A stretch of DNA of 64,000 nucleotides from an uncultured Planctomycetota bacterium (GTDB lineage: Bacteria; Planctomycetota; Phycisphaerae; SM23-33). Both the position numbers and the translations under genes were made by a program. Each line of letters begins with the position of its first letter. The first letter of the stretch is position 1. Below, piece after piece: positions 7,687-26,600 of this stretch. Location of the stretch: positions 1 through 64,000 of the forward strand of contig CAITIS010000079.1 in NCBI GenBank assembly GCA_903892515.1. The letters are read 5' to 3'. Below the pieces are notes generated by a model, which searched no databases, was not told the DNA's origin, and saw only the letters and a program-made list of their open reading frames with translations.

Positions 7687-7905
7687 ATGGGTGCCATAGG
7701 TTGAGCCCGCTATGGGTGCATAGGTTGAGCCCGTTATGGGTGCCATAGGTTGAGCCGCGGTTTCTTGCGGCTCTACCTATGCTCAACGCCGGCATAGGTA
7801 GTCCACGCCGTCGCTCCGCTCCGTCGTGCCCAACCTATGGCACCCAGAGCTCGTGGTGCCCAATCTGTGGCGCCCCGAGTCGGATGCCCACCCTGCGGCA
7901 CCCGA
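7687..7905 (+). repeat. Hairpin element, copy a (3 nested ends)
   Basis: Three left ends (TATGGGTGCCATAGGTTGAG and variants near 7687, 7711, 7735), a left hairpin with arms CATAGGT/ACCTATG and GAGCCGC/GCGGCTC, a right hairpin around GTCGCTCCGCTC, then three right ends (near 7829, 7858, 7886) that degrade outward. It fills the gspL-gspM gap. Positions 7911-7946 add a run of TTCCGATT/CCGGCTTCCG units found in other gaps too. Confidence 0.8.
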
Positions 7906-9311: not shown

Positions 9312-9850
9312 CGCACACCTCCGGCGGCGGGCACGAGCGGACGATTGAGCGGCATGCCAGGTGCATATGGACCGCTGGCCGGCGTGGGCGATTCCTGCCG
9401 CACGGCCTTGCAGGGGATCGTTCGCCCCTGGTACAGCACCGTGGCGCAGCCCTCGCCGATCTCCTTGACGCAGATGCCGTCGCTGGTCTCGCCCAGGGCG
9501 ATGAGCCTCTCGTGGCCGTCGGGCAGGCTGAAGATGGCGTAGGCGAAGCCCGGCTCCTGCACGGTGCCCATCAGCCGGGCCACGAATGGCGGCGGGGCGG
9601 GCGGAGCTACCGGCGGAGGCGGCGGGGCGTCCGCCAGCGGCCGGCTGAAGGGCTTGAGATAGATGACGGTGTAGGCTTGGAGATCCTGGACCTGCGTGGT
9701 CGCTTCGGCCGGTTGCGTGCAGGGACGCGGCGGCGCCTTGACCGCCGGCGTGGACAAGGGCAGCAGCGCCGGCAGCGCAACGGCCGCCACCGCCAGCACG
9801 GCCAGGGCGGCGTTGATCGCCAGCAACTTGCTCTTATTGAGGTGAATCAT
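9308..9850 (-). CDS. GspC/PilP-like periplasmic linker protein
   Basis: 180 residues from MIHLNKSKLLAINAALAVL. The start at 9850 overlaps the gspK stop as ATGA; an ATG 18 bases upstream is less likely. One N-terminal membrane segment (about residues 8-30), a Pro-rich linker (PPPPPVAPPAPPP) near 80-95, then a small beta-domain with VARLMGTVQEPGFAYAIF and GYxxGD-like ALGETSDGI. This matches the homology-region domain of GspC/PilP, which connects the inner-membrane platform to the secretin. I call it GspC-like from architecture and position. Confidence 0.68.
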   Translation of the reverse strand: MIHLNKSKLLAINAALAVLAVAAVALPALLPLSTPAVKAPPRPCTQPAEATTQVQDLQAYTVIYLKPFSRPLADAPPPPPVAPPAPPPFVARLMGTVQEPGFAYAIFSLPDGHERLIALGETSDGICVKEIGEGCATVLYQGRTIPCKAVRQESPTPASGPYAPGMPLNRPLVPAAGGVR

Positions 9851-10995
9851 GGCCACGTAAAACTCCACTCGCTACCGTCGGGCCCGTCCTCGGCGGCCGA
9901 GAACGAATACCATGGTCGCGAACGCCCGTAGGCGATCACCCACACGCTGTGACAGCGCGACCGGTCGGCCACGCGTCCGCTCAGCTTTGCCTGCCGACTC
10001 TGCGGCAACTTCAAGGCCGTGTACACGTCGGCCAAGGTGATACTCTTTTGCTTGGCCCGCAGTGCGAGAATCTTCGCCACGTCGGAATCGTTCAGCACGC
10101 CCTGCAGCGCCACCGCCAGCACGGAGGGCTTGACGCGGGCCAGGTTCACCGCCACGCCGTAGCACGTCAGGTCGGAGGAAATCGATTCGGGCTCCTGCCC
10201 AGCCTGCAGCAACTGGCTGGGGTGCCGCACGGCCAGCACCTGCTCCAAGCTGGAGTATAACCGCCCGCCCTTGGTGGCGTCTGCGTGTGGACTAAGATCG
10301 ACGGCCAGGGCGTCGCGCCGCGTGGCCTGGACCTTCTGCAGGGTCTCCATCAGCACGCCTGAGCCCAGGTCGTTCTGGATGCGGTTGACATCCAGTTTGG
10401 CCTGCTCGTCGGCTATGACCAGATGAAAGCGCAGGCCGCCCAGGTCGGCGTCTCCGGTGACCACCGGCTGAGGTGCGCCGCTGGTTTCCTCCTGCTGGGC
10501 CAGAATCGTCTCGGCCTGGGCCAACGCGGCGGCGCGACAGGACAACGAGCCCCAGCGCAGCTGCAACTGCTCCTGCTCCCCGACCGCCAGCATGGCCAGG
10601 CTGGCGCTGCGGCGCGCCGACGTAACCATGATGCCGCCGGCCAGGGCCAACACCACCAGCACCATTAACAGGATGAAGCCGGATTGCCTCCCGTGGCACA
10701 GCACGGGTCGCTTCTCGTGGCACAGCCGCCCTCGGCTGTGTCCTTTTGTGAGTTCCTCGTGGGTGCCATAGGTTGAGCAATGGGTGCCATAGGTTGAGCC
10801 GCGTCTTCTGGCGGCTCTACCTATGCTGGCCGCGGCGTGTTCACAGGTTACGCATAGGTAGTCCACGCCGTCGCTTCGCTCCGTCGTGGCCAACCTATGG
10901 CACCCAGGCGTGGCCAAGCTTCGCTCCGTCGCGGCCAACCTATGGCGCCCGTGTGCGGGTTGAATGAAGCCGGATTGTCGCTTCGCTCGTCTCAT
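9847..10995 (-). CDS. gspK: Type II secretion minor pseudopilin K, with an in-frame repeat insertion
   Basis: GspK caps the pseudopilus. The C-terminal ~280 residues carry a prepilin signal (GRQSGFILLMVLVVLALAG), ADEQAKLDVN and LTLADVYTAL-like features of GspK. As read from the start at 10995, which overlaps the gspJ stop (ATGA), the frame is 382 codons. About 97 codons right after RQSGFI are encoded by a hairpin element, after which RQSGFI appears again. Without the insert the protein would be about 285 residues. A GTG at 10704, preceded by GAGAAG, could restart translation just before the intact signal. Either the leader is abnormally long or the restart is used. Confidence 0.8.
   Translation of the reverse strand: MRRAKRQSGFIQPAHGRHRLAATERSLATPGCHRLATTERSDGVDYLCVTCEHAAASIGRAARRRGSTYGTHCSTYGTHEELTKGHSRGRLCHEKRPVLCHGRQSGFILLMVLVVLALAGGIMVTSARRSASLAMLAVGEQEQLQLRWGSLSCRAAALAQAETILAQQEETSGAPQPVVTGDADLGGLRFHLVIADEQAKLDVNRIQNDLGSGVLMETLQKVQATRRDALAVDLSPHADATKGGRLYSSLEQVLAVRHPSQLLQAGQEPESISSDLTCYGVAVNLARVKPSVLAVALQGVLNDSDVAKILALRAKQKSITLADVYTALKLPQSRQAKLSGRVADRSRCHSVWVIAYGRSRPWYSFSAAEDGPDGSEWSFTWP
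10673..10977 (+). mobile_element. Hairpin element copy b inserted in gspK, flanked by a 14-bp direct repeat
   Basis: ATGAAGCCGGATTG occurs at 10673-10686 and 10964-10977, bracketing 277 bases. Inside are the CACAGCCG/CGGCTGTG hairpin (10720-10740), two left ends (10759, 10780), the left hairpin, the right hairpin with GTCGCTTCGCTC, and two right ends (10889, 10933). Both flanking copies encode the same gspK residues QSGFI, as expected if one was duplicated on insertion. No transposase gene is present, so it would be non-autonomous. Confidence 0.75.
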
Positions 10996-12460: not shown

Positions 12461-12880
12461 TCATTTCTCCTTCAAGTCCGTGGAGGAGATGTCGGATTCG
12501 GGGCCCTCGCCGCCTTCCTTGCCGTCGGAGCCGTAGCAGACGATTTCATACGGCGGGTCGGCCGTAGCACCGTTGTACTTGTAGACATAGGCATTGCCCC
12601 ATGGGTCGATGGGCAGCTTATCGATGAGTTTCTCGGGGCACTTGACGCTGGGCTTGGTGAGGATGGTGATGCCCTCGTCGGTGGTCGGATACCGGCCGTT
12701 GGCGGCCTGGAACATCTCCATCGCGTGCATGACGGTGGCGATTTCGTTGCGGGCGGTGCTCTTGCGGGCCTTGTTCAGGTAGCCCCGGACATTCAGCGAC
12801 ACCACGCCGGCCAGCATGCCGATGATCACGATCACGATCATGATCTCGACCAGGGAGAAGGCGCGTGCTCTGGGTGCCAT
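12461..12880 (-). CDS. gspG: Type II secretion major pseudopilin G
   Basis: 139 residues from MAPRARAFSLVEIMIVIVII. GspG builds the pseudopilus. The signal RAFSLVEIMIV, the GVVSLNVRGYLNKARKSTARNEI helix and the C-terminal DPWGNAYVYKYNG with the GSDGKEGGEGPESDI calcium-site loop are diagnostic. The ATG at 12880 lies inside the end of a hairpin element and has no good ribosome site. The frame is open through the element to an ATG at 13036, which does have GGAG 9 bases upstream. Use of that start would add 52 residues before the prepilin signal. Confidence 0.85.
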   Translation of the reverse strand: MAPRARAFSLVEIMIVIVIIGMLAGVVSLNVRGYLNKARKSTARNEIATVMHAMEMFQAANGRYPTTDEGITILTKPSVKCPEKLIDKLPIDPWGNAYVYKYNGATADPPYEIVCYGSDGKEGGEGPESDISSTDLKEK

Positions 12881-13036
12881 AGGTTGAGCCACGCCTTTCG
12901 CGGCTCTACCTATGCCCGACGCGGCCACTGGAAGGTCCGCGTCATCTAAACTGTCGTGCGATGAGCAGGCGTCTGGCTCAGCATAGGTAGTCCACGCCGT
13001 CGCTCCGCTCCGTCGTGGCCAACCTATGGCACCCAT
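12871..13036 (+). repeat. Hairpin element, copy c (single ends)
   Basis: Simplest copy: TGGGTGCCATAGGTTG at 12871-12886 and its exact inverted partner CAACCTATGGCACCCA at 13021-13036. Left hairpin arms are CATAGGT/ACCTATG and GAGCC/GGCTC. Right hairpin arms are CATAGGT/ACCTATG and CCACG/CGTGG around GTCGCTCCGCTC. It separates the gspF stop region from gspG and supplies the gspG start codon. Confidence 0.82.
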
Positions 13037-13079
13037 GTTGTTTCTCCGGCCTCTGGCCTCTGACCTCCGACCTCGTCGT

Positions 13080-14282
13080 CTACAGTACATTTCCAGCCTC
13101 CAGAATAGGCAGAATGGTTGCGAACGCGATGAATCCCACCAGCACCGCCAGCAGTACGATCAACAGCGGCTCCAAGAGCGCCGTCAGCCGGGCGGTGGCC
13201 ACCTGGACCTCCTGGTCCTGCGAGGCGGCCAACTGCTCCAGCATCTCTTCCAGTTGCCCCGACTCCTGCCCGACGGCCAGCATCTGCACGACCATGGGCG
13301 AAAATACCTGGCTCTCCGCCAGCGGCTTGGAGACGTCGCTGCCGGCGGCCACGGCCGATTCGTACCCTTCCAGGCACGATTGAAAGACGCGGTTAGTGAT
13401 GGTTCGCCGTGTGATCTGCAACGCCTGGATGAAGGGCAGGCCGCTGCGGAGCAGGGCCGCCAGCACCACGGCCACGCGGCAGGTGTTTTCCTTGCGGATC
13501 AGGTCGCCCAACACCGGCACCTTGAGCAGTTTGCGGTCGACGAAGACCCGGCCCTTTTCCTTGGCCAGCAGCGTGCGGACGCCCGCAACGGCCAGGCCAA
13601 AGAGAATCAGCAGCAGCCACCACCAGTTCAGGATCAGGTCGCTGCACGCCTTGACGAAGCGCGTGACGGTCGGCAGGGGCTTGCCGGCCTGGATCAGCGT
13701 CGCCAGCAGGTTGGGCACCACGTGCGTCATCAGGAAGATGGACACGCTTACGCCCAGCACCAGCACCACGGTCGGATACACCATGGCGGTGGTGACCTTG
13801 CTCTTGAGCCGGACGGACTTGTCCTTGAAGTCGGCCAGGCGTCTGAGCGCCACTTCGAGCGAGCCGGTGTTCTCGCCCACCTGCACGATGCTGACGCAGA
13901 GTTCGTCGAAGTAGTCGCTCTGCTGTCGCATGGCCTGGGCCAGGCCCTCGCCGGCGGCGATGCGGTCAGAGAGGAATTGCAGCACCAGCGTGAAGCCCGG
14001 GCTGTGCTGGCCTTGGAGCGTCTGCAAGGCCGACAGCAGGGGGATGCCCGCCGTCAGCAGCGTGGCCAGTTCGCGGACGAAGCCCACGACCTCGCTCTGG
14101 GCCTTCATGCCGTGGCCAACGGAAAACCACTTCCGGCCTTGCCATGCCGGCTTGCGAACCTCGGTGATGACCAGCCCGCGCTGACGCAACAGGTCGCGCG
14201 CCTGCCTGGCCGTGTCGGCCACGATCGTGCCGTTCACCGCCGCTGACGAACCGTCCATTGCTTTGTATGCAAATACCGCCAT
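13080..14282 (-). CDS. gspF: Type II secretion inner-membrane protein F
   Basis: 400 residues. GspF is the polytopic platform protein that couples the ATPase to pseudopilin extraction. The N-terminus MAVFAYKAMDGSSAAVNGTI is the typical GspF start. Two T2SSF domains follow, the first with VRELATLLTAGIPLLSAL, the second with LAALLRSGLPFIQAL. Membrane segments lie near 165-195, 215-240 and at the C-terminus (LLIVLLAVLVGFIAFATILP). Length is normal. It follows gspE after a repeat-filled gap. Confidence 0.9.
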   Translation of the reverse strand: MAVFAYKAMDGSSAAVNGTIVADTARQARDLLRQRGLVITEVRKPAWQGRKWFSVGHGMKAQSEVVGFVRELATLLTAGIPLLSALQTLQGQHSPGFTLVLQFLSDRIAAGEGLAQAMRQQSDYFDELCVSIVQVGENTGSLEVALRRLADFKDKSVRLKSKVTTAMVYPTVVLVLGVSVSIFLMTHVVPNLLATLIQAGKPLPTVTRFVKACSDLILNWWWLLLILFGLAVAGVRTLLAKEKGRVFVDRKLLKVPVLGDLIRKENTCRVAVVLAALLRSGLPFIQALQITRRTITNRVFQSCLEGYESAVAAGSDVSKPLAESQVFSPMVVQMLAVGQESGQLEEMLEQLAASQDQEVQVATARLTALLEPLLIVLLAVLVGFIAFATILPILEAGNVL

Positions 14283-14302: not shown

Positions 14303-14631
14303 CACCGCCGAGAACGCAGAGACCGCCGAGAAAGACAACTACCCGGCCACAAAGGTCACGAAGCTGCTCCGTGTGCCATAGGTTGACCCGCTCTGGGTGC
14401 CACAGGTTGAGCCGCTCTGGGTGCCATAGGTTGAGCCGCGTCTTCTTGCGGCTCTACCTATGCCCGACGCAGCTCACCGGCTGGCCGCATAGGTAGTTCA
14501 CGCCGTCGCTCCGCTCCGCCGTGCCCAACCTATGGCACCCATACGCAACCTATGACGCCCACACGCAACTTGTGGCACCCATACGCGATCTCAAACACGT
14601 CTTATCTGCGTCGTCTGCGGTGAAACTCGTC
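14303..14631 (+). repeat. Hairpin element, copy d (3 nested ends) with outer CGCAGAG/CTCTGCG arms
   Basis: Left ends near 14371, 14394 and 14418 repeat every 24 bases; right ends lie near 14524, 14545 and 14565. Between them are the left hairpin (GAGCCGC/GCGGCTC) and right hairpin (GTCGCTCCGCTC loop). Outside, CACCGCCGAGAACGCAGAG (14304-14322) faces TCTGCGGTGAAACTC (14616-14630), forming another inverted pair. The whole gspE-gspF gap is filled. Confidence 0.78.
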
Positions 14632-19000: not shown

Positions 19001-19870
19001 TTACCGAAGCTGGGCGTAGGCGATGAGCTTGTACGCCAGCCGGGCGGCCAGAAATTCTGTCTGGTTCGACGGCGGCAGGGGGCGGACCTCGACGATGTCG
19101 GCTGAGACCACCTGGCGTTCGGCAAACACCCGCCGCAGCAGGTCGCACAGTTCCAGCCAGCGCAGGCCGCCGGGCTCGGGCGTGCCGGTGCCGGGGGCTT
19201 CGGAGGGGTCGAGCCCGTCGATGTCCACGGTGATATAGACCTTTTCGCCCAGCAGGCTCAGCGTGCGCTCGATCCACTTGGGGTCGGAGCGGATGACGCG
19301 CGGGGTGATGAAGTTGGCCACTTGCTGGGGGCAGGCCTCGAACTCCTCCTTGGAGAAGTTGCGGATGCCGACCTGGGCGATCCGCGGTGTGATCTCCAGC
19401 ACGCGGCGCATGATGCAGGCGTGAGAGTGCCGGCTGTCCTTGTACACGTCGCGCAGGTCGGCGTGGGCGTCGATCTGCAGGACGGAAATCTCGCCGTGCG
19501 CCTGGGCAGCGGCCTTGACCAGCGGGTAGCTGATGCTGTGCTCGCCGCCTAAGGTCAGCAGGAACTTGCCGGCCTGGATGATCGGGTCGGCGGCCTTGGC
19601 CAGGCGGCGCATCTCCTCTTCGGGCGTGTCGGCCGGCGGCACCGGCGGCAGTGTGGCCACGCCGCACTGGAAGAATTCGGCCTTCAACTCGTCATCGAAC
19701 AACTCAACTTGCTCGGAGGCGGCGATGATCTGCGAGGGGCCGTCGCCCGTGCCGGTGGCGTAGCTGACCGTGCCCTCGTACGGGGCCGGCAGAATGAAGA
19801 ACCGCGCCGTCCTGGGGTCAGATAGTTCGTCCGGCAGGTTCAGGAAGTTGTTTTCGGGAAAAGGCAGCAT
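19001..19870 (-). CDS. speB: Agmatinase
   Basis: 289 residues; hydrolyses agmatine to putrescine and urea. Ureohydrolase metal ligands are visible in GGEHSISYP, DAHADLRD and DIDGLDPSEAPGTGTPEPGG. The start at 19870 has GAGGAAA about 6 bases upstream; the frame extends further only through a repeat. The arginine decarboxylase that makes its substrate lies just upstream on the same strand, separated by 339 bases of repeats. Together they give arginine to agmatine to putrescine. Confidence 0.92.
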   Translation of the reverse strand: MLPFPENNFLNLPDELSDPRTARFFILPAPYEGTVSYATGTGDGPSQIIAASEQVELFDDELKAEFFQCGVATLPPVPPADTPEEEMRRLAKAADPIIQAGKFLLTLGGEHSISYPLVKAAAQAHGEISVLQIDAHADLRDVYKDSRHSHACIMRRVLEITPRIAQVGIRNFSKEEFEACPQQVANFITPRVIRSDPKWIERTLSLLGEKVYITVDIDGLDPSEAPGTGTPEPGGLRWLELCDLLRRVFAERQVVSADIVEVRPLPPSNQTEFLAARLAYKLIAYAQLR

Positions 19871-19889
19871 GGCGATTTCCTCGCTAGGA

Positions 19890-20110
19890 TCCCGTGACAC
19901 GGGCGTCTCGCCCGTGCGTGTCATGGCCGTCTCGGCCGTGGGCTTGTCTTCGTAGCACAGCCGCCCTCGGCTGTGGTCTTTTCTGGGTGCCATGGCCTGA
20001 CGCTGCGTAGTCTTGCAGCGGCTGGCCATGCATAGCTAGTCCAACTTGTCGCTCCGCTCCGAGTTGGCCAAGCTATGGCACCCACTCATTCAAGCTATGG
20101 CACCCAAGCG
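19890..20110 (+). repeat. Hairpin element, copy e (variant arms)
   Basis: 19899-19943 carries hairpins of the form CACGGGCGTCTCGCCCGTG. 19955-19976 has the CACAGCCG/CGGCTGTG hairpin. The element itself has left arms CATGGCC/GGCCATG and CGCTGC/GCAGCG, right arms CATAGCT/AGCTATG and CCAAC/GTTGG around GTCGCTCCGCTC. The right end is repeated at 20068 and 20090. All stems differ from copies a-d yet still pair. Confidence 0.8.
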
Positions 20111-23593: not shown

Positions 23594-23612
23594 TCGGTGT
23601 CGCCGCCTCTTT

Positions 23613-23840
23613 CGTGGCACAGCCGCCCTCGGCTGTGGTCGTTATGGCTGCCATAGGTTGAGCAAGGGTGCCAGAGTTGAGCAAGGGTGCCATAGGTTGA
23701 GCCGCGTCTTCTTGCGGCTCTACCTATGCCAGACGCGGCCGGCGCATTCGTCATGCATAGCTAGTCCACGTTGCCTCTTCGCGCCGACGTGTTCAAGCTA
23801 TGGCACCCTCTTGTCGGTAGTATGGGCGCCCTCGGCTGTG
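23613..23840 (+). repeat. Hairpin element, copy f, flanked by a 13-bp direct repeat
   Basis: GCCCTCGGCTGTG lies at 23625-23637 and again at 23828-23840. Left ends occur near 23645, 23665 and 23684; the left hairpin has arms GAGCCGC/GCGGCTC. The right hairpin has CATAGCT/AGCTATG and CACGT/ACGTG arms with a diverged loop. Right ends lie near 23795 and 23820. It separates thiL from tsaE. Confidence 0.78.
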
Positions 23841-26465: not shown

Positions 26466-26600
26466 TGCGCCCTGAAAGGGCGTGAGAATGTGCCGCCCCT
26501 TCGGGGCTCGAGTTCTCACGGGCTCTGGACCGGGGGCTGACGCCCCCGGCTACAATCGTGCCGGCCCTTCGGGCCTCAGGACAGCGTACAGCGGGTGGCG
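26466..26600. repeat. Cluster of small GC hairpins
   Basis: GTGAGAA (26481-26487) pairs with TTCTCAC (26513-26519) around GCCCCTTCGGGGC. GGGGGCTGACGCCCCC lies at 26532-26547 and GGCCCTTCGGGCC at 26563-26575. The nest lies between convergent genes and may terminate transcription of the ABC operon and nadB, although T runs are missing. Confidence 0.6.

Follow-up and report, generated by a model that had tools for sequence, protein, structure and literature searches.

In the 64,000-nucleotide stretch of DNA that was analysed (the window, 64 kb), gspJ and the type II secretion gene gspK overlap on the gene strand: gspJ ends in ...VPVK TGA, and the overlapping ATG starts gspK, which reads MRRAKRQSGFI. 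An exact 14-mer, ATGAAGCCGGATTG, occurs at 10673-10686 and again at 10964-10977. These are its sole matches in the window, with no others even at up to 2 mismatches, where 0.69 would be expected by chance, and no similarity continues outside the two copies. The copies are spaced 291 bases apart, or 97 codons, with 277 bases between them. Only one of the six frames of the 277-base insert is stop-free, namely that of gspK, which is open throughout; after base shuffling of the insert, a given frame was open in 8% of trials. The earlier note on this DNA had described this exact repeat and a stop-free distance of 97 codons, and both are confirmed, the latter by the six-frame check. Its description of a gspK that starts MRRAKRQSGFI and is coupled to gspJ by ATGA also holds, but the 14-mer itself encodes QSGFI only and not, as had been claimed, the MRRAK before it. 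In the gene direction, the second copy is followed by LLMVLVVLALAGG, a transmembrane helix.

Features of the gspK insertion and of the related gspG gene (window coordinates)
Feature	Position	Strand	Remarks
gspK, native ATG to stop, insert included	9847..10995	-	
ATGA overlap: gspJ stop TGA (10992-10994) and native gspK ATG (10993-10995)	10992..10995	-	Shine-Dalgarno pairing -7.6 kcal/mol
14-bp target duplication, first copy in gene direction, CAATCCGGCTTCAT, codons QSGFI	10964..10977	-	exact match
14-bp target duplication, second copy, followed directly by the gspK transmembrane segment	10673..10686	-	exact match
277-bp insert, REP/REPIN mosaic	10687..10963	.	stop-free only in gspK frame; fold z -7.4 for 10673-10977
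Unit B, full REPIN of two inverted REPs, GGGTGCCATAGGTTGAGC ... CAACCTATGGCACCC	10782..10905	+	258 genome matches to 18-mer; 39 full units in 1.264 Mb; aligned and folded
Left arm of unit B, duplicated	10760..10778	+	repeat family D7
Right arm of unit B, duplicated	10918..10950	+	repeat family D1
Unit A, REP hairpin GTGGCACAGCCGCCCTCGGCTGTG, second REP family	10717..10740	+	same palindrome borders RAYT L095
Hairpin CCCGTGGCACAGCACGGG at left insert end, degenerate unit A	10690..10707	+	holds candidate GTG start on minus strand
Candidate alternative GTG start; leader would be MLCHGRQSG	10702..10704	-	in frame; weak Shine-Dalgarno pairing, -3.2 kcal/mol
gspG with second in-frame REPIN (motifs 12871-13035) between native start MYCRRRG and FSLVEIM	12461..13090	-	

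Between the 14-mers, REP palindromes form a mosaic, most of it a single REPIN (an inverted REP pair). Together with the 14-mers it has a fold far more stable than those of shuffled sequences. The insert termini, CCTCCCGTGG... and ...GTGCGGGTTGA, do not form an inverted-repeat pair. An Rfam search of the window found one RNA only, unrelated to the insert; an Acido-Lenti-1 sRNA match lies at 26530-26576, above the Rfam gathering score.

An 18-mer from unit B has 258 matches at up to 2 mismatches in the 4.89-Mb genome, compared with 0 for a reversed-pattern control. Of 39 relatives, three have one 2-mismatch match each, and it is absent from the rest. In 1.264 Mb of this genome there are 39 full unit B REPINs, mostly 108-113 nt long, and 152 unit B hairpins with GTAG at the foot, in the pattern GGTAGAGCCG...CGGCTCAACC. 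The family thus has the hallmarks of REPs and REPINs: a high-copy, dispersed short palindrome, inverted pairs of defined length, a GTAG-footed hairpin and a cognate RAYT flanked by the same palindromes. Covariation gives little support (double changes at 4 of 32 pairs of the consensus fold of aligned unit B copies), so the structural case for the REPIN fold rests on stability and palindromy. With 14 Y1_Tnp matches (L085-L098), the host is a rich multi-REPtron genome. One RAYT gene, L093, is bordered by unit B palindromes and another, L095, by those of unit A; both encode open RAYT-like proteins with an HxH motif. Four more (L090, L092, L094 and L098) are bordered by other palindrome families, and in several of the Y1_Tnp genes whose flanks were read the bordering palindromes are in inverted orientation. 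RAYTs have been described in this arrangement, the REPtron (PMC2817692, PMC3733652).

Genome-wide, the closest relatives of the whole insert sit in the same gene cluster, at 7713, 12981, 14394 and 23612, which suggests local copying; the composite of units A and B recurs at 23612. Copies of a unit B subfamily whose second hairpin is CCACGCCGTCGCTCCGCTCCGTCGTGG-like are likewise concentrated in and near the gsp cluster (7689-7847, 14371-14545 and 23612-23838), which suggests local spread or conversion. Elsewhere, the open frame at 19001-20029 has a REP-derived N-terminus (MAPRKDHSRGRLCYEDKP...) upstream of its likely real start. Short tandem arrays made of a family A hairpin plus about 10-20 bp of flanking DNA occur at L046:18366, L047:19687, L073:9494 and L083:5391.

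What did the site look like before the insertion? We compared gspK homologues from five genomes belonging to this bacterium's family, order or class, along with further records. Their leaders are about 9-13 residues long, end in G before F or Y and contain no insert (MRQRNNNSG^F, MKHGSRNTG^F, KSKVRQSG^F, MRTCKQQRG^F, MTARTADNSG^F and others). The relatives that were searched include no listed genome of the same genus, and the homologues are 32-37% identical, so this is an empty site at the protein level rather than the nucleotide level. When the two copies are collapsed, the sequence becomes GTGAAATGAGACGAGCGAAGCGA-CAATCCGGCTTCAT-CCTGTTAATG, which translates to MRRAKRQSGFILLMVL; the joined flanks read MRRAKRQSG^FILLMVL, an ancestral-type start that marks the insertion as derived. 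Judging from the short leaders of the homologues together with this clean joined site, the insertion is the derived state. The earlier note's proposal of an insertion with target duplication, or of a templated duplication, is supported by the same two observations. Two findings that would speak against it, a long leader in relatives lacking the element and an empty site lacking a single copy of the 14-mer, were looked for at the protein level; the first was not seen, and the second look left the proposal standing.

We also asked whether direct repeats of unique host sequence lie on both sides of repeat clusters across the genome. A scan of 864 kb gave 8 bracketing repeats of at least 13 bp, compared with 0.91 expected from shifted masks (maximum of 4 in 200 trials). 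In a data set that overlaps this one, 1.264 Mb of stretches picked partly for holding unit B copies, 9 of the 694 clusters have left and right flanks that align locally with a score of at least 14; swapped flanks predict 0.35 such cases and repeat-free intervals 0.69. Six of these nine cases are clean by eye; the others (L055, L060 and L050) resemble coding or low-complexity repeats. The duplications differ in length by site (12, 13, 14, 15, 16, 18 and 21 bp), and include an 18-bp repeat tightly around a single REP (L132) as well as repeats of 21 bp (L061), 16 bp (L058) and 14 bp (L079, and gspK itself). The left copy at L061 and L079 is located where a long open frame ends, and the one at L058 includes a stop codon in reverse complement; REPs are known to favour gene ends (PMC3733652), and these positions agree with that. 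Only one or two in a hundred repeat clusters carry a duplication. An initial flank test, whose k-mer mask was loose, gave no clear excess, being swamped by coding k-mers, and a stricter test with narrow windows (6 of 451, control 19 of 2295) was not clearly above its control; these were replaced by the shifted-mask, flank-swap and enlarged tests, in which the enrichment depends on allowing degenerate repeat ends. Flanking repeats at L045, L047, L052 and L073 were dropped as tandem arrays or other repeat families. We also rejected an in-frame length as a property of the element: insert lengths at ten duplicated sites cover all three phases. Since lengths elsewhere are not in general multiples of three, that gspK stayed in frame may be luck.

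We consider it probable that a REP/REPIN mosaic inserted at the gspJ/gspK junction, with 14 bp copied and a cleaved leader tolerating the addition, and that it is non-autonomous DNA served by the host's RAYT (Y1 HUH) transposases. The 14 bp would have been copied because the target had been cut with staggered ends when the element entered, or because entry took place while a single-strand gap was being filled; this copy would have rebuilt QSG^FI beside the transmembrane helix. For IS200/IS605 transposases, no larger target duplications are known (PMC2817692), which makes one less expected here. The 14-bp length also brought casposon-like integration into consideration as a candidate. It is quite possible, if not the likeliest course, that repair supplied the duplication: a staggered break or stalled fork would have been filled by template switching with REP DNA from a nearby copy in the gsp cluster, the 14 bp arising from end filling and RAYT having no direct part. 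The location of the best insert relatives, in the same gene cluster and with the A and B composite at 23612, agrees with such an event, as do the variable duplication lengths (12-21 bp) and the tandem arrays of other repeats with flanking DNA. However, repair alone leaves unexplained why the inserted DNA is of REP type, and RAYT genes with matching palindromes are present.

Tandem arrays among other flanking repeats could also hint that there was no insertion duplication at all, and that chance, or a tandem duplication beside a REP inserted without one, produced the 14-bp repeat. This is improbable: the exact 14-mer is otherwise absent from the window, similarity stops at the copies, the joined flanks form a clean ancestral-type start, and flanking duplications exceed their controls. 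Misassembly of the metagenome contig at a repeat is more improbable still. The assembly is fragmented (159 contigs) and the insert is repeat DNA, but each junction is in unique host sequence, and neither the frame nor the gene order is disrupted. Beyond the insertion at gspK that we prefer, we tentatively entertain the idea that REP/REPIN insertion in this planctomycete lineage makes variable target duplications of 12-21 bp by RAYT-linked staggered cleavage or gap filling, with prepilin leaders and other dispensable stretches as in-frame landing sites.

The insert might effectively be extragenic, if GspK starts at the candidate GTG and the frame upstream is unused. The leader MLCHGRQSG^F would then have 9 residues, equal in length to the ancestral MRRAKRQSG, and according to a published survey many N-terminal REPs are probably extragenic (PMC3733652). 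Against this, pairing at the GTG is weak (-3.2 vs -7.6 kcal/mol for the native ATG), the start codon is held within a predicted CCCGUG/CACGGG hairpin, and the gspK frame is the only stop-free frame of the insert. We regard a GTG start as rather unlikely. Because the native ATG pairs better and the GTG sits in a hairpin, we favour translation from the native ATG through the insert. Ribosomes starting there would make a GspK with a 106-residue leader, which is unusual. The 97 added amino acids lie within the segment of GspK that is normally removed. Prepilin leaders, which terminate in Gly or Ala, differ in length and are sometimes very long (PMC10191384). The mature pseudopilin may therefore be the same as without the insert, with prepilin peptidase putatively removing the whole leader. 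Such removal would also explain why pseudopilin leaders appear to tolerate inserts.

The same operon offers a second case. The REPIN in gspG is related to the gspK insert, and one of its arms (12981-13035) is 98% identical to the gspK arm over 55 nt. Shine-Dalgarno pairing at the native gspG ATG (13090) is strong (-10.2 kcal/mol), and the frame is open through the REPIN to a leader that ends ...RARA^FSLVE, with Ala before the cleavage site. By comparison, gspG in two relatives (G022 and G005) begins MYS...G^FSLVE, as MYS...RRG^F or MYS...RVG^F. A duplication comparable to that of gspK was looked for by eye in gspG, and none was seen. If a cleaved leader is a tolerant landing site, this would also explain the in-frame REPIN in the gspG leader.

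Among known systems, the closest is that of REPINs/BIMEs with RAYT (TnpA-REP) in the GTAG-tagged REP superfamily (PMC2817692, PMC3116915, PMC3733652), which shares the high-copy short palindromes, inverted pairs, mosaics, the GTAG at the foot of the unit B hairpin and a cognate RAYT bordered by the same palindromes. It differs in the 14-bp target duplication here and the 12-21 bp duplications at a minority of other clusters; in searches of open-licence papers we found no report of REPIN target duplications. IS200/IS605 single-strand transposons are alike in having Y1 HUH transposase relatives and palindromic ends, but they lack larger target duplications, in contrast to the 14 bp at gspK and the excess at other clusters. 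DDE-type MITEs (Correia/NEMIS, RUP, ERIC) are likewise small, non-autonomous and folded, with target duplication; here, however, the 14-mers do not adjoin terminal inverted repeats, and duplications differ in length from site to site. Rickettsia palindromic elements (RPE) are also palindromic repeats that lie in frame in genes and are translated, though in a different host phylum, and the likeness is by concept only. Intragenic and N-terminal REPs have already been published (PMC3733652), so the gspK case is of a known kind. What sets it apart is the 14-bp duplication together with the double hit on cleaved leaders.

REP DNA has also entered the ValRS gene. The genome's only strong ValRS copy (L150:99-3854, G000:C98:~107698-111453) is a single open frame of 1252 aa, into which REPs, a RAYT (Y1_Tnp) and inverted REPs intrude where the editing domain begins. 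At the same site, six related genomes (G002, G007, G022, G031, G043 and G046; L143-L147, L149) have an in-frame RAYT-like block, Pfam-confirmed in 4 of them, and another (G040, L148) has a short REP-like relic only. A literature search for a RAYT block in ValRS found no report. In this lineage, REP DNA can thus remain an open coding sequence even in a gene that should be essential.

The means by which REPs disseminate has been described as unresolved (PMC8266576). Where unique host sequence is duplicated on either side of a repeat, it records the insertion step, and several such footprints can be compared in this genome. If the tentative generalization to this lineage is true, RAYT-linked elements would insert by staggered cleavage or gap filling, which the single-strand, IS200-like model does not predict. 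Altogether, gspK and gspG suggest how a gene may absorb a palindrome in a cleaved leader while, given putative processing, its mature protein would be unaltered. The prepilin leader may thus be a tolerant landing site.
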